From Thiobacillus sp. 65-1059 (GTDB taxonomy: Bacteria; Pseudomonadota; Gammaproteobacteria; Burkholderiales; Thiobacillaceae), in assembly GCA_001897675.1 (NCBI GenBank), contig MKUE01000116.1:1-53017 (forward strand): DNA of 53,017 nt, read 5' to 3'. Position numbers and translations under genes: made by a program. Positions 6,032-14,256 of this stretch are shown in pieces; position 1 is the stretch's first letter; each line of letters starts with the position of its first letter. The notes beneath the pieces are model-generated. The model saw only the letters and a program-made list of their open reading frames with translations, was not told where the DNA came from and searched no databases.

Positions 6032-6716
6032 ATTTCGTCTCCGTGCTGGCGTCCGCCAGGTGAAGGATATCCAGATAGCCGCGTTCGGCCATCCTCCGCG
6101 CTTCGTTCAACAGGGCCGCATTTTCCGCATTCGGCGATTCGTTGCCGTCGAGCAGGCGCAGCATGCGCGTCCAGCGCTCGCGCTGGTTCGCCACGGTCTT
6201 CGGCGCAGCAAGCCCCTGCCGCCGCAGCTCGGATGCGCGGCTGACGAGGCGGAACTTCGCGGCTTCGAGCTGCGGCGGCAGCGGCAGGGACAGGTTGAAC
6301 GTGAGATCGAGACGGTAGGGCGCTTCGACTTCGCTGTCAGATTCCGGCGGCGGGCGCCACGAGAGTTCGTCAGGGCCGGGTGCGACACGCTCGGGATCGA
6401 GCGGGAACTTGTAGAAGCCCCATTTCGCGCCCATCCAGCATTCGAGCAGCACACGCTCGTCTTCTCCCATGCACAGCTCGCCTTCGGGCGCGGCGATTTC
6501 GGCGTTGCCCGGCAGCGGGCCGTAGGCGCGCGCATCCTGCTTCCATCTTGAAAAGTTGCGCTGCGGCGGGGAGCCGTAGTCGGCTTCGAGCGCGCGCCAG
6601 ATGGCGATGAAGGCCTGGTAGTCGCGCCGGTAGTCCGGGTTGCGGCGCAGGAATTCCCATGCCCACTGGTCGCGCGTCAGCGCGTCACCTGGTGCGGGGG
6701 GCGGCTCGGAATTCAC
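6030..6716 (-). CDS. Uncharacterised protein with DUF6499-like N-terminus, coupled to selO
   Basis: A 228-residue soluble protein when read from GTG at 6716, which overlaps the selO stop codon as GTGA. I prefer this start to the longer open frame because of that coupling. The segment WAWEFLRRNPDYRRDYQAF (about 18-36) and the later WGFYKFPLDP resemble the 'transcriptional regulator-like' DUF6499 proteins of betaproteobacteria; this is recalled, not computed. There is no signal peptide, membrane segment or catalytic motif that I recognise. Its translation depends on selO, so a shared role is possible but the function is unknown. Confidence 0.7.
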   Translation of the reverse strand: MNSEPPPAPGDALTRDQWAWEFLRRNPDYRRDYQAFIAIWRALEADYGSPPQRNFSRWKQDARAYGPLPGNAEIAAPEGELCMGEDERVLLECWMGAKWGFYKFPLDPERVAPGPDELSWRPPPESDSEVEAPYRLDLTFNLSLPLPPQLEAAKFRLVSRASELRRQGLAAPKTVANQRERWTRMLRLLDGNESPNAENAALLNEARRMAERGYLDILHLADASTETK

Positions 6717-8179
6717 GACGAGCAGCTGACCTCGATCTGCTTCGCCCAGTCGGGCGGCTCGGCGGCGTAAGCCTCGCATTCCGGCTGCTCGTCATGAGGC
6801 CGCGACAGCAGCGCGTGCAGGCGATTGACCTCGCTGTAATCGCGTTCGTCCACGGCGCGGCGGATGGCGACTTCGGCCAGGTGGTTGCGCAGGATGTATT
6901 TCGGATTGACGCGCCGCATCGCCTGGCCGCGCTCGGCATCCACCGAGCCCTGCTGGCGCAGCGCGGCGGCGTAGCGGGCCGCCCAGGCGTCGAACGCCGC
7001 ACGGTCGAGGAAGAGGTCGCGCAGCGGCGGATTGACGGCGCCGGGGCTGCTGTCGAAATCGCACAGGCGGCGCAGGAAGATCGTGTAGTCGACGCGGTTT
7101 TGCGCGAGCAGCTGCAGCGCGTCCGTGAGGATCGGCAGCAGACCCTCGCCGGCCGCGAGGCCGAACTTTTCTGCCATGCGGGCGAGGTAGGCCTGGCCGA
7201 ATTGCCGCGGGTAGTCGCCGATCGCGGCGGAGGCGGTTTCCACCGACAGCAGCGGCACCAGCGTCTGCGCGAGCTTGGTGAGATTCCACGCGGCGACGTC
7301 GGGCTGCTGGTCGAAGGCATAGCGTCCGCCGCTGTCGGAATGGTTGCAGACGAAGCCGGGGTCGAAGGCGTCGAGGAAGCCGAACGGGCCGTAGTCGAGA
7401 GTGAGGCCGAGGATCGACATGTTGTCGGTGTTCATCACGCCGTGCGAGAAGCCGACCGCCTGCCACTGCGCCATCAGCTCGGCGGTGCGGCGGGCGATTT
7501 CGCGCAGCAGTTCGGCGTGGGGTTCGGCGCGCGCCGCCAGTTCGGGGTAGTAGCGCGCGATGACGTAGTCGGCCAGTTGCCGGATCGGCTCGACCTGGTT
7601 CCTGTAGTAGAACACCTCGAAGGAACCGAAGCGCACGAAGCTCGGCGCCAGCCGCGTCACCAGCGCGGCGGTCTCGACCTCCTCGCGGTAGACCGGATGA
7701 TCGCTGCCGACGATGGCGAGGGCGCGCGTGGTGGGGATGCCGAGCGCGTGCATGGCTTCGGAACAGAGGAATTCTCGGATGCTCGAACGCAGCACCGCGC
7801 GGCCGTCGCCGCCGCGCGAGTAGGGGGTGCGTCCGGCGCCCTTCAATTGCACTTCCCAGCCTTCGCCGGCGGCATTCTTCACCTCGCCCAGCAGGATCGC
7901 GCGGCCGTCACCCAACTGCGGCACGTAGTGGCCGAACTGGTGTCCGGCATACAGCGCGGCGAGCGCGTCCATCCCCGGCAGCGATTGGTTGCCGGCCAGC
8001 GTGCGGATCAGTTCGGGACGGGCGATTTCGCTGTCGTCGAGGTCGAGCAGCGCCAGCGCTTGCGGGCTGTGGCAGACGAGATAAGGATCGGGGACGGGCG
8101 TGGGGCAGACGCGCGAATAAAAGATTTCCGGCAGGCGGGCGAAGCCGTTGTCGAAGGCCAGCGATTCAAGTTTGGGCAT
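6713..8179 (-). CDS. selO: Protein adenylyltransferase SelO
   Basis: SelO is a pseudokinase-fold enzyme that transfers AMP from ATP to Ser/Thr/Tyr of target proteins and is linked to oxidative stress control. The 488 residues match the family length. Visible motifs: YAGHQFGHYVPQLGDGRA (about 98-115), VQLKGAGRTPYSRGGDGRAVLRSSIREFL (about 129-157), and the catalytic loop VGFSHGVMNTDNMSILGLTLDYGPFGFLD. The C-terminus ends Cys-Ser-Ser; in eukaryotic SelO this cysteine position is selenocysteine. Here the codon is a normal Cys codon, so no Sec insertion is needed. It lies 109 bp downstream of egtD on the same strand. Confidence 0.95.
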   Translation of the reverse strand: MPKLESLAFDNGFARLPEIFYSRVCPTPVPDPYLVCHSPQALALLDLDDSEIARPELIRTLAGNQSLPGMDALAALYAGHQFGHYVPQLGDGRAILLGEVKNAAGEGWEVQLKGAGRTPYSRGGDGRAVLRSSIREFLCSEAMHALGIPTTRALAIVGSDHPVYREEVETAALVTRLAPSFVRFGSFEVFYYRNQVEPIRQLADYVIARYYPELAARAEPHAELLREIARRTAELMAQWQAVGFSHGVMNTDNMSILGLTLDYGPFGFLDAFDPGFVCNHSDSGGRYAFDQQPDVAAWNLTKLAQTLVPLLSVETASAAIGDYPRQFGQAYLARMAEKFGLAAGEGLLPILTDALQLLAQNRVDYTIFLRRLCDFDSSPGAVNPPLRDLFLDRAAFDAWAARYAAALRQQGSVDAERGQAMRRVNPKYILRNHLAEVAIRRAVDERDYSEVNRLHALLSRPHDEQPECEAYAAEPPDWAKQIEVSCSS

Positions 8180-8288: not shown

Positions 8289-9230
8289 CTACCCGTACAG
8301 CTGGACAGCGAATCCCTCCTGTTCCCATTCGTCCGCCAGTTTCCAGCCGGCGTTTCCCGCAATCGCGCTGAATTCGTCGCGGCGGAACTTGTAGGAATGC
8401 TCGGTATGCAGCGTCTCGCCGAGGGCGAAATGGAAACGCCGGCCCGCTACGCTCACCGTCTGCGCGGCAAGGCTGACCAGATGCATCTCGATGCGGCCGG
8501 CAACCGGATTGTAGAAGGCATAGTGGCGGAATCGGGCGGGGTCGAAATCGGCGTCCAGTTCGCGGTTCAGGCGTTCGAGGAGGTTGAGGTTGAAGGCGGC
8601 GGTGATGCCGGCAGCGTCGTTATAGGCGGCGTGCAGGAGCAGCGGATCTTTCTTGAGGTCGAAGCCGATGAGCAGGTGCCCATCGGCGCCGGCCAGCTGG
8701 CGGAAGCGCGCGAGCAGGGCGGTCGCGGTGTCGGGCGGGAAGTTGCCGATGCTGGAGCCGGGGTAATAGATCAGTCGCCGGCCGGGCGGCAGGCAAGGGG
8801 CCGCGGCTTCCAGGTCGCGGAGGAAATCCATGCCCAGCGCGGTGACGGCAAGTTGCGGGTAGGCGCGGGCGAGGGTTTGCGCGGCGGCGGCCAGCGGGGC
8901 GCCGGCGATGTCCAGGACGACGAGGTGGGTGGGGTGCAGGGCGTCGAGCAGCAGGCGCACCTTGCGGCACTCGCCGGCGCCCGGCTCGACGATGCAGTCG
9001 AGCGGGCCGACGGCGGCCGCGATGTCGGGCAGGCGGGAGGCCATGAGCGTCCGTTCGGTACGGCAGAGGGCATATTCAGGCTGCGCGCAAATGGCCTCGA
9101 ACAGACGGCAGCCCGTCTCGTCATAGAAATATTTCGGCGGAATGGATTTGGGGCAGGCGGCCAGGCCGCCCAGCACGTCGCTGCGCAAATCGTCGGCGGC
9201 GACGGGAAAGTCCTGAAAGGTGAACGCCAC
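8289..9230 (-). CDS. egtD: L-histidine N-alpha-methyltransferase EgtD
   Basis: Trimethylates histidine with three SAM to give hercynine, the precursor of ergothioneine and selenoneine. The 313-residue protein carries the family marks: IPPKYFYDETGCRLFEAI near 30, the SAM-binding VEPGAGECRKVR near 85, PGSSIGNFPP near 155, and the C-terminal ALGETLHTEHSYKFRRDEF. The start is GTG at 9230, immediately after the selD stop codon, so the two are cotranscribed and probably coupled. The neighbours selD and the divergent SenA/EgtB-like gene argue for use of hercynine in selenoneine synthesis rather than, or besides, ergothioneine. Confidence 0.95.
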   Translation of the reverse strand: MAFTFQDFPVAADDLRSDVLGGLAACPKSIPPKYFYDETGCRLFEAICAQPEYALCRTERTLMASRLPDIAAAVGPLDCIVEPGAGECRKVRLLLDALHPTHLVVLDIAGAPLAAAAQTLARAYPQLAVTALGMDFLRDLEAAAPCLPPGRRLIYYPGSSIGNFPPDTATALLARFRQLAGADGHLLIGFDLKKDPLLLHAAYNDAAGITAAFNLNLLERLNRELDADFDPARFRHYAFYNPVAGRIEMHLVSLAAQTVSVAGRRFHFALGETLHTEHSYKFRRDEFSAIAGNAGWKLADEWEQEGFAVQLYG

Positions 9231-10301
9231 TCAGACGCTGACCGCAACGTCGCGGCCGGCCTGTAGGCGGCCGATTTCCGCCGCCTGCGCGAAGCCGTGC
9301 CGCCGGAAGGTTTCCAGCACCGTGTCGCGCGCCGCGGTGGCGCAGCTCACCAGCAGGCCGCCGCTGGTCTGCGGGTCAGTGAGCAAGGCCTGCTGCCAGT
9401 CGGCGATGCCGCCGGCCAGGCTCACTTCGTCGCCGTAGCTCGCCCAGTTGCGGCCGCTGGCGCCGGTGACATGGCCGCCCTGTGCCAGTTCGCTCACGCC
9501 GGGCAGCAGGGGCAGGCGGCCCAGCCCGACCTGGGCCGAGACGTTCGATGCCCGGGTGATTTCGAGCAGGTGGCCGAGCAGGCCGAAGCCGGTGATGTCG
9601 GTCATCGCGTGCACGCCAGCAGTTGCGGCCAGATCGGCGCCGGCGGTGTTGAGCTGGGTGGTGGCGGCGATCATCGCAGCGTATTGCTCGGCGCTGAGCA
9701 GGCCTTTTTTCAGCGCCGCGCTGTAGATGCCCACGCCCAGCGGTTTGCCGAGGATCAGGTGGTCGCCGGCCTGGCCGCCGCTGTTTTGCTTGACCTTGCG
9801 CGGGTCCACCACGCCGATGCCGACCAGCCCGTAGATCGGCTCCGGGGCGTCGATGGAATGGCCGCCGGCGATGGGGATGCCGGCCGCCTTGCACACCGCT
9901 TCGCCGCCGGCGAGGATCTGCCGGATGACCTCGTTGGGCAGCTTGCCGATCGGCATGCCGACGATGGCCAGGGCGAACAGCGGCCGCCCGCCCATGGCAT
10001 AGACGTCGGACAGCGCATTGGTGGCGGCGATGCGGCCGAACTCGAAGGGGTCGTCGACGATGGGCATGAAGAAATCGGTGGTCGCCACGATCGCCTGTTC
10101 GTCGTTGAGGCGGTAGACCGCGGCGTCGTCGCCGTGCTCGATGCCGACCAGCAGATCGGGATAGGCCGTCGCCATGTGCGAGGCGAAGGGCGTGTCGGCC
10201 AGGATGTCCCGCAATACGGCGGGCGCGATCTTGCAGCCGCATCCGCCGCCATGGGAAAACTGGGTCAATCGGATGGGCTGATCGGGAATGGGCTTGCTCA
10301 T
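9231..10301 (-). CDS. selD: Selenide, water dikinase (selenophosphate synthetase)
   Basis: Makes selenophosphate from selenide and ATP, the activated selenium donor. The 356-residue protein shows the active-site HGGGCGCKI with Cys21 in the Cys/Sec position and Lys24. It also shows the AIR-synthase-like core: TTDFFMPIVDDPFEFGRIAATNALSDVYAMGG, then GGHSIDAPEPIYGLVGIG and a MTDITGFGLLGHL segment. I chose the ATG at 10301 because the family starts a few residues before the glycine-rich loop. No selA, selB or tRNA-Sec occurs in the window. Selenophosphate could feed selenoneine or 2-selenouridine in tRNA. It is divergent from the SenA-like gene with 66 bp between starts. Confidence 0.96.
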   Translation of the reverse strand: MSKPIPDQPIRLTQFSHGGGCGCKIAPAVLRDILADTPFASHMATAYPDLLVGIEHGDDAAVYRLNDEQAIVATTDFFMPIVDDPFEFGRIAATNALSDVYAMGGRPLFALAIVGMPIGKLPNEVIRQILAGGEAVCKAAGIPIAGGHSIDAPEPIYGLVGIGVVDPRKVKQNSGGQAGDHLILGKPLGVGIYSAALKKGLLSAEQYAAMIAATTQLNTAGADLAATAGVHAMTDITGFGLLGHLLEITRASNVSAQVGLGRLPLLPGVSELAQGGHVTGASGRNWASYGDEVSLAGGIADWQQALLTDPQTSGGLLVSCATAARDTVLETFRRHGFAQAAEIGRLQAGRDVAVSV

Positions 10302-10367
10302 TTGCAGAATTCGCCCGTCGCGGGAGGGGCGCCTAGAATTCGGTTGGACATAGTGCATCTATATAGC
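10302..10367. promoter_or_regulatory. Divergent promoter region between selD and the SenA-like gene
   Basis: The 66-bp gap has to hold promoters for both directions. TAGAAT at 10334-10339 is a 5/6 match to a rightward -10 box, but I see no good -35. The octamer AGAATTCG occurs twice (10306-10313 and 10335-10342), and TATATA lies just before the rightward start. Neither gene has a clear Shine-Dalgarno sequence. Confidence 0.45.
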
Positions 10368-11525
10368 ATGAACCGAACCCGACCCGTCAGCGGCCTTACT
10401 GCGAACCAGCTCATCGCTCGGCTGGCGCAGGCGCGCGGCCAACTGCGGGCATTGATCGGCTGCCTGCCCGCGGGCGGCTGGCTGGGACCGCGCGCGGGGC
10501 ATCTGAATCCGCCGCTGTGGGAATACGGGCACATCGTCTGGTTTCAGGAGCGCTGGTGCCTGCGGGCACGGCCCGGCGGCGGGTTTGCGGCGAGCCTGCT
10601 GGCGGCGGCCGACGCGCTGTACGATTCTTCCAGCGTTCCGCACGATCGCCGCTGGGATCTGGCTTTGCCCGAACCTGCCGCGGTCGACGAATACGCAGAG
10701 CGGGTCGCCGCCGCCGTGGCCGTTCGCCTGCGCAGCGGGTTCGACCCCGAGATCGCTTATTTCGCCGAGCTGTGCCTGTATCACGAACTGATGCATATCG
10801 AGGCCTGGTGGATGGCATTCCAGAATCTGGGCTATGCGCCGCCCGCGTGGTCCGACGGCGCCGGCGCGCTGCCGGCGCAGCGGCTGGCGTTCGCCGCGGG
10901 CGAGGTGGAACTGGGTAGCGGAAGCGGCGAAGGCTTCATTTTCGACAACGAGAAGTGGCGTCATCCGGTGCCGGTCCCGGCATTCGACATCGACGCGAGC
11001 CCGCTGTCCGAGGTGGCTTTCGCCGAATTCGTCGACGCCGGCGGTTACCGGCGCAGCGCGGGGTGGTCGGACGCAGGCCGGGCCTGGCGGGCCGCCGTCG
11101 GCGCCTGCCATCCCCTCTACTGGCGGCGGGAAAACGCTGCCTGGCAGATGCGCCGCTTCGACCGCTGGCTACCGCTCGGCGCAGACCGCCCCATGCTGCA
11201 CGTGAACCGTTACGAAGCCGAGGCCTGCGCCGCCTGGATGGGGCGGCGGCTGCCCGCCGCAGCGCAGTGGCTGCGGGCAGCGCGGCAGCCGGAATTTCGC
11301 CGGGGCATGGCGTGGGAATGGCTGCGCGACGCGTTCGCGCCGTATCCGGGGTTTTCGCCCGACCCCTACCGGGATTACGCGCAGCCCTGGTTTCACACGC
11401 ACGGAGAATTGCGCGGCGGCGGGCCGTTCACCGATCCGTCGCTCAAGCGCCCCGGCTTCCGCAATTTCTATTTGCCGGAGCGGCGCGATCCCTTCGCCGG
11501 CTTTCGTACCGTGAGCGCGGATTGA
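10368..11525 (+). CDS. senA: Selenoneine synthase-like (SenA/EgtB family) non-heme iron enzyme
   Basis: This 385-residue protein has the EgtB/SenA/OvoA architecture. A DinB-like iron domain occupies about 1-160, with ligands His55 (WEYGH) and the HX3HXE motif at His139/His143 (YHELMHIE). An FGE-sulfatase/SUMF1-type domain covers about 175-385. EgtB joins hercynine to a sulfur donor by O2; SenA joins hercynine to a selenosugar. The C-terminal FAPYPGFSPDPYRDYAQPWF and FRNFYLPERRDPFAGFR resemble what I recall of SenA proteins more than classical EgtB. The divergent selD supports this. Part of the usual SUMF1 core is altered (GGGPFTDP where GGSxAT is common). The SenA-versus-EgtB choice is an inference; membership of the superfamily is firm. 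Confidence 0.72.
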   Translation: MNRTRPVSGLTANQLIARLAQARGQLRALIGCLPAGGWLGPRAGHLNPPLWEYGHIVWFQERWCLRARPGGGFAASLLAAADALYDSSSVPHDRRWDLALPEPAAVDEYAERVAAAVAVRLRSGFDPEIAYFAELCLYHELMHIEAWWMAFQNLGYAPPAWSDGAGALPAQRLAFAAGEVELGSGSGEGFIFDNEKWRHPVPVPAFDIDASPLSEVAFAEFVDAGGYRRSAGWSDAGRAWRAAVGACHPLYWRRENAAWQMRRFDRWLPLGADRPMLHVNRYEAEACAAWMGRRLPAAAQWLRAARQPEFRRGMAWEWLRDAFAPYPGFSPDPYRDYAQPWFHTHGELRGGGPFTDPSLKRPGFRNFYLPERRDPFAGFRTVSAD

Positions 11526-11534
11526 GGCTGCGGC

Positions 11535-12518
11535 TCAGCCGCCGGTCATCGACATGAAGCGCAGGATCTTGTGCGGCGCTTCGCGGAACTCGTGGCGCTC
11601 CGGCTTGAGGTTGATCGCTTCAAGAATGGCGGCGTCGAGCGCGGCGTCGCTGCAGCCGCTGCGCAGCAGGGGGCGGAATTCGAATTTCTCTTCCTGCCCC
11701 AGGCACATGTAGGCGGTGCCGTCGACGGCTATACGGATGCGGTTGCAGGTCTGGCAGAAATGCTGCGAGATGGGGGTGATGAAGCCGACGTTGAAACGGC
11801 CGTCCGGCGTGCCGAGGTAACGCGCCGGCCCGGCGCCGGGCAGGGTGGTCTCGACCAGGCCGAACTGCGTGCGCAGCCGTTCCTTCACCGGCTGCAGGTC
11901 GAGGTATTCGGCATTGCGCCCGGTTTCGCCCATCGGCATCGCCTCGATCAGCCGCAACACGAAGCCGCGCTGCATGCAGAAGGCGACCATTTTGTCGATC
12001 TCGTCGTCGTTGCTGCCGGCGAGCGTCACCATGTTGAGCTTGATCGGTGCGAAGCCGGCGTCCTGCGCCGCCGCCAGCCCGGCCATCACCTTGGCGAGCA
12101 CATCGCGGCCGTTGATCTTTTCCACCCGCGCCTGCTGCAGCGAGTCGAGGCTGACGTTGAGCCGCGTCACGCCGGCGGCCTTCAAGGCCTGCGCATGCTT
12201 GTCGAGCCGGGTGGCGTTGGTCGACAGCGACAGGTCCTGAATGCCGGGCAGGGCGGCGATGCGTCCGGCCAGTTCGGCAATGTTGCGCCGCAGCAGCGGC
12301 TCGCCGCCGGTGAGGCGGATGCGGCTCACCCCCAGGCGGGCGAATGCGCCGATCAGGCGCTCGATCTCGTCGAAGCCGAGCCAGTGTTCGGGTTCTTCAA
12401 ACCCCTTGAAGCCTTCCGGCATGCAGTAGCTGCAGCGCAGATCGCAGCGATCCGTCACCGACAGCCGCACGTAGTCGATACGGCGGCCAAACTGATCGGT
12501 GAGAACGGGTGCGCTCAT
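11535..12518 (-). CDS. moaA: GTP 3',8-cyclase MoaA
   Basis: A radical-SAM enzyme for the first step of molybdenum cofactor synthesis, converting GTP to 3',8-cyclo-H2GTP. The 327 residues include the N-terminal cluster motif CDLRCSYCMPEG (about 25-36, CX3CX2C), GGEPLLR, NVSLDSL, the C-terminal second cluster CQTCNRIRI with a further Cys downstream (CLG), and the essential terminal Gly-Gly. The ATG at 12518 gives the usual N-terminus; the open frame upstream is spurious. It ends 9 bp from the convergent SenA-like gene. The start faces mobB across a ModE-type operator. Confidence 0.96.
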   Translation of the reverse strand: MSAPVLTDQFGRRIDYVRLSVTDRCDLRCSYCMPEGFKGFEEPEHWLGFDEIERLIGAFARLGVSRIRLTGGEPLLRRNIAELAGRIAALPGIQDLSLSTNATRLDKHAQALKAAGVTRLNVSLDSLQQARVEKINGRDVLAKVMAGLAAAQDAGFAPIKLNMVTLAGSNDDEIDKMVAFCMQRGFVLRLIEAMPMGETGRNAEYLDLQPVKERLRTQFGLVETTLPGAGPARYLGTPDGRFNVGFITPISQHFCQTCNRIRIAVDGTAYMCLGQEEKFEFRPLLRSGCSDAALDAAILEAINLKPERHEFREAPHKILRFMSMTGG

Positions 12519-12545
12519 GAGGTCGGCTGTGCTTGGCAGGAATGG

Positions 12546-12567
12546 GTTATATATGAAAAAATATAAC
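12546..12567. promoter_or_regulatory. ModE-type operator between moaA and mobB
   Basis: GTTATAT (12546-12552), 8-nt spacer, ATATAAC (12561-12567): a perfect 7-bp inverted repeat. The arm sequence and spacing agree with ModE operators as I recall them (GTTATAT-N8-AYATAAC). It lies between two divergent molybdenum cofactor transcription units, and a ModE-like gene is 7 kb away. Confidence 0.65.
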
Positions 12568-12587
12568 AAGCTTGGGGGGATCGTGCA

Positions 12588-13088
12588 ATGAAAGTATTCG
12601 GCATCGCAGGTTACAGCGGCAGCGGCAAGACCACGCTGATCGAGCGCGTGCTGCCGCAACTGGCTGCGCGCGGCGTGCGCGCCGCGGTGATCAAGCACAC
12701 CCATCACGATTTCGACATCGACCGCCCCGGCAAGGACAGCTGGCGCGCGCGCGAGGCGGGTGCGGCGGCGGTGCTGCTGGCCTCCGATCACCGCACGGCG
12801 GTGCTGACCGAGCATCGCAACACGCCGCCGGTGCTGGACGATTTGCTGGCGGCACTGCCGCCGTGCGACCTGGTGCTGGTCGAAGGCTACAAGCGCGAGC
12901 CCATCCCGAAGCTGGAAGTGCATCGCGCCGAGACCGGGAAACCCTGGCTGTTTCCCGAAGACCGGCAGATTCTGGCGGTGGCGTCCGACGCCGAGCCGCC
13001 CAACGGCTTTCCCCGCATCGACATCGATGCCATTCAATCCCTTACGGACTTCATCCTGAACCATGCTCTCAGCCGACCAACTGCTTGA
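12588..13088 (+). CDS. mobB: Molybdopterin-guanine dinucleotide biosynthesis adaptor protein MobB
   Basis: A small P-loop GTPase that assists MobA in attaching GMP to molybdopterin. The 166 residues begin MKVFGIAGYSGSGKTTLIERV (Walker A at about 9-16), then KHTHHDFDIDRPGKDSWRAREAGA and the LVEGYK segment, all typical of MobB. It is first in mobB-moeA-moaD-moaE and its end overlaps moeA by 26 nt. Confidence 0.95.
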   Translation: MKVFGIAGYSGSGKTTLIERVLPQLAARGVRAAVIKHTHHDFDIDRPGKDSWRAREAGAAAVLLASDHRTAVLTEHRNTPPVLDDLLAALPPCDLVLVEGYKREPIPKLEVHRAETGKPWLFPEDRQILAVASDAEPPNGFPRIDIDAIQSLTDFILNHALSRPTA

Positions 13089-14256
13089 TGCCCTGCTCGA
13101 ACGCGCGCGCGGCCTGACCGCAACCGAAACCGTCGCCATCACCGCGGCGCTCGGGCGCGTGCTCGCCGCCCCCCAGGCCTCCTCGATTGCCGTGCCGCCG
13201 GCGGACAACAGCGCGATGGACGGCTACGCCGTACGTCTTGCCGACGTGACGCACCCTGGCGTCAAGCTTCCCCTGTCGCAGCGCATCCTGGCCGGCGCGG
13301 TCGGCCAGCCGCTGCAGCCCGGCACCGCGGCGCGCATCTTCACCGGCGCGCCGGTGCCGCCGGGCGCCGACGCCGTGCTGATGCAGGAAGACTGCAGCGC
13401 AGACGGCGCGGATGTCGTCATCAACAAGCTGCCGCAGCCCGCCGAAAACATCCGCCGCGCGGGCGAGGACATCGCCGCCGGCGCGCAGGTCCTTGCCGCC
13501 GGCAGCCGCATCGGCGCGGCCGAAATGGGGCTTGCCGCGTCGGTCGGGCTGGCCGAACTGCCCGTGTTCAGGCGGCTGAAGGTGGCGTGCTTCTTCACCG
13601 GGGACGAACTGGTGACGCCGGGCCTCGCCCTGCAGCCGGGCCAGATCTACAACTCCAACCGCTATACGCTGACCGGGCTGGTGAACGGCCTCGGCTGCGA
13701 ACTGATCGATCTCGGCATCGTGCCGGATACGCTGGAAGCGACCGAAGTCGCGCTGGCCGGCGCCGCCAGCGTTGCCGACGTCGTCATCACCAGCGGCGGG
13801 GTCTCGGTGGGCGAGGCCGATTTCGTGAAAGCCGCAGTCGAGAAACTCGGCCGGGTCGAGATGTGGAAAGTGGCGATGAAGCCCGGCAAGCCGATCGTCT
13901 ACGGACGGGTGAACGACGCCGACTTCATCGGCCTGCCCGGCAATCCGGTGTCGGCCTTCGTCACCTTCTGCCTGTTCGTGCGGCCGTTTCTGCTCAAGCG
14001 CATGGGCGCGGCCGACGTGCTGTACCGTGCGTTCGCCGTGCCGGCGGATTTCGCCTGGAGCAGGCCGGGCGCGCGCCGCGAATTCCTGCGCGCGCAGCTG
14101 CAGCCGAACGGCAAGCTGGCGCTGTTCCCGAACCAGGGTTCGGGGGTGCTGACTTCGTGCGCCTGGGCCGACGGTCTGGCCGACATCGCCATCGGCCAGA
14201 CCGTGCAGCCGGGCGACTGGGTGCGCTTCATTCCCTTCTCGGAGCTGCTGACATGA
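13063..14256 (+). CDS. moeA: Molybdopterin molybdenumtransferase MoeA
   Basis: Inserts molybdate into adenylylated molybdopterin. The 397 residues match the family length: VPPADNSAMDGYAV (about 46-59), IFTGAPVPPGADAVLMQED, the GDELVTPG segment, TSGGVSVGEADFVK (about 246-259) and the KPGKPIVYGR/GLPGNPVSAFV motifs. The start lies inside mobB and the stop overlaps the moaD start as ATGA, so all four genes are translationally coupled. Confidence 0.96.
   Translation: MLSADQLLDALLERARGLTATETVAITAALGRVLAAPQASSIAVPPADNSAMDGYAVRLADVTHPGVKLPLSQRILAGAVGQPLQPGTAARIFTGAPVPPGADAVLMQEDCSADGADVVINKLPQPAENIRRAGEDIAAGAQVLAAGSRIGAAEMGLAASVGLAELPVFRRLKVACFFTGDELVTPGLALQPGQIYNSNRYTLTGLVNGLGCELIDLGIVPDTLEATEVALAGAASVADVVITSGGVSVGEADFVKAAVEKLGRVEMWKVAMKPGKPIVYGRVNDADFIGLPGNPVSAFVTFCLFVRPFLLKRMGAADVLYRAFAVPADFAWSRPGARREFLRAQLQPNGKLALFPNQGSGVLTSCAWADGLADIAIGQTVQPGDWVRFIPFSELLT

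Follow-up and report, generated by a model that had tools for sequence, protein, structure and literature searches.

The sen cluster of Variovorax paradoxus, associated with the biosynthesis of selenoneine, was reportedly described by Kayrouz et al. in 2022. Here we compare this system with a locus from Thiobacillus sp. 65-1059 that lies on contig MKUE01000116.1 (termed C116), a 53,017 nt stretch of DNA that was analysed in full and is called the window. The locus carries egtD, selD and, divergent from both, a gene for a 385-residue enzyme of the EgtB/SenA family with an HX3HXE motif. In published accounts, the V. paradoxus cluster has the composition senA-senB-senC (PMC9814287; PMC10891094, PMC10702425, PMC10903977). 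The Thiobacillus genome encodes members of the same SenA, SenB and SelD/SenC families and retains the key SenB residues, but its senB gene is on another contig, and egtD follows selD within the cluster. The two SenA proteins also differ in length, with the V. paradoxus chain (PDB 8ryz) having 416 amino acids and the window enzyme 385.

Two further systems provide useful comparisons. In Hydrogenophilus sp. BE2011_2 (locus L050), egtD likewise lies beside a divergent senA, and the SenA and SenB proteins are 66% and 58% identical, over the aligned parts, to those of the Thiobacillus genome. In contrast to the Thiobacillus arrangement, however, selD and senB are found about 1.4 kb beyond senA, such that egtD, senA, selD and senB all fall within 6 kb. 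The EgtB proteins of other Thiobacillus genomes are also FGE-type synthases of a hercynine-based pathway, but these are only about 29% identical to the window SenA, have no adjoining SelD, and score 568-582 bits on the EgtB model TIGR03440 (two proteins tested).

The Thiobacillus locus very probably constitutes the SenA-SelD-EgtD half of a complete selenoneine pathway of the known type, with senB residing on a different contig. An initial annotation of the window had already described EgtD, SelD and a divergent HX3HXE enzyme 66 bp away, and the genes, strands and coordinates given there are correct. It also considered the enzyme to be closer to SenA than to EgtB and the locus to be of the selenoneine type, a view with which the model scores, tree and residue patterns described below agree.

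SenA and SenB in the same genome

The window enzyme is assigned as SenA, not EgtB, by several features of its sequence. It scores 424.6 bits on the SenA model NF041186 (cut-off 420) and 81.5 bits on the C-terminal signature TIGR04373 (cut-off 71; two EgtBs of the genus score 31), whereas its score on TIGR03440 is 230.9 bits, below the EgtB cut-off of 360. The protein carries the Pfam domains DinB_2 and FGE-sulfatase, and its closest PDB sequences are those of SenA (8ryz/8k5i, 252 bits), followed by OvsA (166 bits) and EgtB (128 bits).

Because the SenA cut-off is passed only narrowly, the phylogeny and individual residue columns were also examined. In a quick tree of 73 rows, including 55 SenA-like proteins, 17 EgtBs and OvsA, in which the root of the EgtBs carries flagged long branches, the window enzyme and V. 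paradoxus SenA 8ryz share a clade of 43 rows (SH-aLRT 99) that contains neither EgtB nor OvsA. Of 16 columns that discriminate SenA-like from EgtB rows, the window enzyme matches the SenA type in 15 and the EgtB type in none. Residues H55, H139, H143 and E145 are identical in all 55 SenA-like and all 17 EgtB rows, and are not diagnostic between the two. We take H55, H139 and H143 to form the three-His iron site, carrying this ligand assignment over from EgtB. An EgtB identity was ruled out by score, tree and residues, and an OvsA identity by tree and score, with OvsA 8ux5 falling in another starred group. Placement inside the EgtB clades, which the initial annotation named as grounds for abandoning the SenA reading, was not observed. 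The window SenA shares 93% identity with its counterpart in Thiobacillus sp. 65-1402 and 67-81% with those in other records titled Thiobacillus. The record behind locus L059 is titled Klebsiella pneumoniae but is a metagenome bin; its SenA groups with betaproteobacterial rows, making the title doubtful.

The source genome comprises 2.9 Mb in 143 contigs, with a listed completeness of 100% and contamination of 4%. A search of this genome with the SenB model TIGR04348 yielded eight matches, none of them on C116, which bears out the earlier remark that the window lacks SenB. One match, at C122:6597-7526, scores 441 bits against a cut-off of 300, and the other seven reach at most 45 bits. The adjacency of senA, senB and senC/selD is therefore not found in this genome, with senB on C122 and senA-selD on C116. 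True absence of SenB from the genome was rejected on the basis of the C122 match, and the first alternative proposed initially, that SenB is unlinked, is the one that applies. Since SenB is present in the same genome, another selenium donor or a different substrate, which had also been suggested, is not needed.

The C122 gene encodes a protein of 319 amino acids whose four PDB sequence matches (E 0.001) are all SenB or selenium-glycosyltransferases. One report (PMC10891094) lists 12 functional SenB residues (N20, T23, H58, R61, T83, T85, Q131, R155, K158, E231, H235 and E239), of which the Thiobacillus protein keeps 11, including the equivalents of K158, N20, T23, E231 and E239. As a control, seven other glycosyltransferases of the genome keep only four to six of the 12. 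Furthermore, the protein is located inside the genus clade of the SenB tree (best identity 88%). Because of this placement, we rejected the possibility that C122 originates from a contaminant of another genus.

Separation of senA and senB, and SenB without SenA

The separation of senA from senB is the rule in Thiobacillus, and is a recurrent arrangement rather than an oddity of the window. Among 56 genomes of the genus, 45 encode a full-length SenA, and 43 of these also encode SenB; the two that do not are 93% and 79% complete. The remaining genomes include two with fragments matching the SenA model (set aside), seven with SenB and no SenA, and two with neither. Two single-contig genomes have senA and senB 446 and 965 kb apart (positions compared by eye), and a third carries both genes on one contig at a distance of 105 kb. 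The other 40 have them on different contigs, which alone is no proof of distance. Two of the 45 SenA genomes (G045 and G054) have a SenA of the V. paradoxus-like or OvsA-side type that is 36-39% identical to that of the window, and these are perhaps contaminants.

We assembled 51 loci with related SenAs, with flanks of up to 10 kb, some of which are clipped by contig ends. SenB lies within the available flanks of two of these loci, and 25 of the 26 genomes checked (representing 26 of the 51 loci) have SenB. One example is Thiobacillus denitrificans RG, where locus L018 unites egtD, selD and senA and the genome also encodes SenB. In a sample of 399 genomes from the order, scored on the top four or five candidates of each genome, 89 have SenA above the cut-off and 84 of the 89 have SenB above the cut-off; matches below the SenB cut-off (G098, G250 and G325) were excluded. 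The two genes are within 6 kb of each other in 63 of the 84 genomes, separated by 48 kb to 2 Mb of a single contig in five, and on different contigs in 16, four of which belong to the genus of the window. Thus, 21 of the 84 do not have the genes together, although in some different-contig cases (e.g. G290) both genes are at contig ends and the split is perhaps only apparent. SenA without a neighbouring SenB, which was initially regarded as an anomaly, is therefore not rare. Among the titles and abstract openings that we surveyed, a scope outside which the 2022 Nature and 2024 ovoselenol papers fall, there is no statement of split clusters or of SenB without SenA.

A SpoU-type methylase gene lies divergently beside senB in 29 of 29 short loci of the genus and in six of six longer loci (five from the genus and one from the family; the sets overlap). 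This neighbourhood also includes RNase HII, LpxB and often CTP synthase. The SpoU/RNase HII/LpxB neighbourhood is found at 11 of 18 SenB loci without SenA, two of six other unlinked loci and three of 25 linked loci. At L178, L179 and L185, which are the three linked loci, the gap separating senB from the SpoU methylase gene is occupied by a SenA-like gene. Because the gap is filled in these cases, the Thiobacillus senB site looks like the same site without that gene, a difference that may reflect either loss or gain. The SenA-like proteins of L178, L179 and L185 fall in the OvsA-containing group (support 96) and, judged from this placement, may not make selenoneine. We also considered a senA remnant beside orphan SenBs and rejected it, as there is no SenA match (E 1e-12) in the spacer of the seven SpoU-SenB loci that have one. 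In six of these seven, the open reading frame (ORF) in the spacer seemingly encodes one unrelated protein (by eye).

For 26 genomes all candidates were rescored, comprising 20 that have SenB and no SenA (e.g. G124:C1, L155; G341, L156; G150, L171; G176, L168; G187, L164) and six controls or SenB-less genomes. Eight of the 20 orphan-SenB genomes have no EgtB/SenA/OvoA-family match at E 1e-10, and four have only weak FGE-type matches (at most 83 bits). Another seven have matches in OvoA-length frames, and the four that were tested were all confirmed as OvoA. EgtB is present in two, one of which is also among these seven. SelD is present in 19 of the 20 genomes (the exception is G022), and K158, N20, T23, E231 and E239 are conserved in all 20 orphan SenBs. 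SenB and SelD are neighbours at three of the loci (L155, L156 and L171), and many of the other genomes have SelD divergent from a tRNA 2-selenouridine synthase gene. On the SenB tree, 11 changes of the orphan label are required. These sequence features suggest either a second use of the selenosugar or repeated loss of SenA. It is possible, if rather doubtful, that SenB and SelD in part of the order supply a selenosugar as an end product, or as the precursor of an undescribed selenium metabolite, without SenA, and that Thiobacillus senB remains at an old housekeeping site from which it is tapped from afar for selenoneine.

Proposed pathway, probable sharing of enzymes and alternatives

The observations made here concern gene presence, family membership and key residues, together with phylogenies of SenA, SenB and EgtD, whereas the reactions are those described in the literature for other species. 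In the proposed pathway, EgtD would trimethylate histidine to give hercynine, and SelD would form selenophosphate from selenide and ATP. The unlinked SenB would then join selenophosphate to a UDP-sugar and cleave the Se-P bond, yielding a selenosugar. SenA, an iron enzyme, would catalyse the oxidative coupling of this selenosugar to hercynine, and the resulting selenoxide would break down and be reduced to selenoneine.

The SelD of the window probably feeds both this route and the tRNA 2-selenouridine synthase, since the only SelD match in the genome (E 1e-30) is located in the sen locus, and none is present in the 12 kb surrounding the tRNA synthase gene on C10. No SelA match (TIGR00474, 1e-3) was found in the genome; SelB and tRNA-Sec were not searched for genome-wide. 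In two genomes of the genus without SenA (G010:C3, L234; G018:C17, L235), a SelD gene lies divergently beside the one for the tRNA 2-selenouridine synthase, and these SelDs are 68-69% identical to that of the window.

No EgtB or other EgtB/SenA-family protein was found elsewhere in the genome; EgtA, EgtC, EgtE and EanB were not searched for. The only other FGE-domain match (C131:9619; 312 amino acids from the first ATG) scores 46.5 bits on the EgtB model, and by score is neither EgtB nor SenA. Because no EgtB was found, aerobic ergothioneine synthesis appears unlikely in this genome, which leaves EgtD to SenA. The initial annotation had named a complete sulfur-only ergothioneine pathway, with SelD reserved for tRNA or selenoproteins, as grounds for abandoning its reading. 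The presence of the tRNA selenouridine synthase fits one half of that scenario, whereas the failure to find an EgtB does not fit the other.

The window EgtD is located within a clade of sen-locus EgtDs, to which four EgtDs linked to EgtB in the genus do not belong. In a non-random sample, 23 of 39 EgtD rows are nearest to a SenA within 4 kb, so that EgtD beside SenA is common in this sample, whereas the initial annotation had called EgtD 'usually elsewhere'. True EgtB occurs at seven loci of the genus (L105-L111; G002, G001, G011, G055, G044, G048 and G020), with EgtD adjoining in L106-L108 and L111. Three of the 33 related loci that have SelD and at least 2 kb beyond it carry no EgtD (L024, L026 and L033). 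Where EgtD is missing from the sen locus in G011 and G055, it lies beside EgtB instead; in G002 the sen locus includes an EgtD and the EgtB locus does not. EgtD therefore seems to be shared between the SenA and EgtB pathways elsewhere in the genus. We dropped the idea of a dedicated second EgtD for selenoneine, as these three genomes show one EgtD across both loci.

Several points weigh against a selenoneine pathway divided between C116 and C122. The window enzyme clears the SenA cut-off by a mere 4.6 bits, and six full-length matches in the genus lie just under it (399.5-417.8 bits). Of the 55 SenA-like tree rows, 12 lie outside the clade that holds V. paradoxus SenA, and OvsA branches from within the SenA-like rows, which means that 'SenA-like' covers more than one function. 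The genome's SenB has Asn in place of His235 (EGGANV versus EGGAHV); this Asn is common to all 32 rows of the genus (30 genomes, some without SenA) and to 15 of 26 senA-linked rows. As SenB is also encoded in genomes that lack SenA, finding it does not by itself prove selenoneine, and one of the 26 genomes with related SenAs (G080, locus L063) showed no SenB. Finally, association of SenA with SenB is not significant in the genus (Fisher p 0.12 across 56 genomes and 0.21 across the 27 good ones), because nearly all genomes have both genes, and the p of 1e-52 obtained for the order takes no account of relatedness.

Each of the competing explanations draws on some of these facts. If the enzyme were an EgtB making ergothioneine, with the adjacent SelD serving tRNA selenouridine only, the HX3HXE/FGE architecture common to EgtB and SenA would be expected, the genome's tRNA 2-selenouridine synthase would account for the need for selenophosphate, and the true EgtBs of some genus members would provide a precedent. 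We consider this very unlikely, given that two such EgtBs (568 and 582 bits on TIGR03440) form a separate clade, that the window enzyme falls far short of the 360-bit cut-off and lacks the EgtB-type residue at all 16 discriminating columns, and that selD adjoins window-type senA in 36 of 51 loci.

An OvsA-type enzyme acting in ovoselenol synthesis, on histidine rather than hercynine, is suggested by the close relationship of OvsA (166 bits) and its nesting in the tree, but the stronger match to V. paradoxus SenA (252 bits), the placement of OvsA in a different group (support 96), not within the 43-row clade, and the presence in the cluster of EgtD, the hercynine maker, make it highly improbable; the ovoselenol methyltransferase was not searched for. 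There is likewise scant likelihood that SenA uses another selenium donor while the unlinked SenB belongs to a different pathway. The housekeeping surroundings of senB (SpoU methylase, and in relatives RNase HII, LpxB and CTP synthase) and the genomes that have SenB without SenA would be consistent with such a division, whereas the co-occurrence of SenB with SenA in 84 of 89 genomes of the order, the proximity of the two genes in 63 of 84, and the retention of SenB residues for selenophosphate and UDP-sugar all argue against it.

Locus layout and implications

Table 1. Features of the sen locus and its surroundings in the window.
Feature	Positions	Strand	Evidence
senA, selenoneine synthase (DinB_2 + FGE-sulfatase, HX3HXE, 385 aa), assigned from sequence	10368..11525	+	NF041186, TIGR04373, Pfam, PDB matches, tree
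selD/senC, selenide, water dikinase, makes selenophosphate	9231..10301	-	TIGR00476, 433.5 bits (cut-off 125)
egtD, histidine N-alpha-methyltransferase, makes hercynine	8289..9230	-	TIGR03438, 365 bits (cut-off 290.9)
selD/senA divergent intergenic region	10302..10367	.	Alignment of 36 related loci
selO, protein adenylyltransferase, same strand as egtD; pathway membership not implied	6713..8179	-	PF02696, 454 bits

The GTG start codon of egtD immediately follows the selD stop codon, and because of this arrangement selD-egtD looks like a single transcript. The selO gene lies 109 bp past egtD, and a SelO match is present in 24 of the 51 related loci. With the ATG at 10301 taken as the selD start, 66 bp separate the starts of senA and selD; a longer open frame for selD extends from 10358. 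The SelD sequence reads GGGCGCK, which is presumably the Cys form. Among the 51 related loci, selD is divergent from and less than 200 bp from senA in 36, and an egtD match (E 1e-15) is found in 37. Given this recurrence, the association of senA, selD and egtD is not due to chance. At four loci (L190, L214, L114 and L124), an ORF of about 760 amino acids beside senA has a later part that resembles SelD.

Alignment of 36 intergenic regions revealed a TATATA-like box just upstream of the senA start that is common to related loci and is a putative promoter element. Similarly, 32 aligned regions upstream of senB have a TACACT -10-like box near the start codon (by eye; about 7533-7575 in L117). A regulatory motif common to senA and senB was rejected, as each set has its own -10-like box and no longer shared motif was seen by eye in the 36 and 32 regions. 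In relatives, just a few bases separate each box from the senA or senB start, as might be expected of transcripts with no leader or a very short one. Past the sen locus, at 11535-14256 of the window, there are genes that look like the molybdenum-cofactor synthesis genes moaA, mobB and moeA (named by eye), and a moaA-like gene lies at most 250 bp from senA in 27 of the 51 related loci.

The apparent biosynthetic gap at this locus is removed by what appears to be a known type of pathway encoded in two places. Searches for selenium metabolites that rely on gene clusters can overlook split pathways of this type, which may account for up to a quarter of the sampled genomes of the order with both genes (21 of 84), some of these perhaps reflecting contig breaks. 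In our literature search, the one paper pairing 'selenoneine' with 'Thiobacillus' is, by its title, about polysulfide chemistry; our findings place selenoneine genes in this sulfur-oxidising genus. If the orphan SenB proteins are functional, there may be another metabolite derived from the selenosugar that is yet to be discovered.

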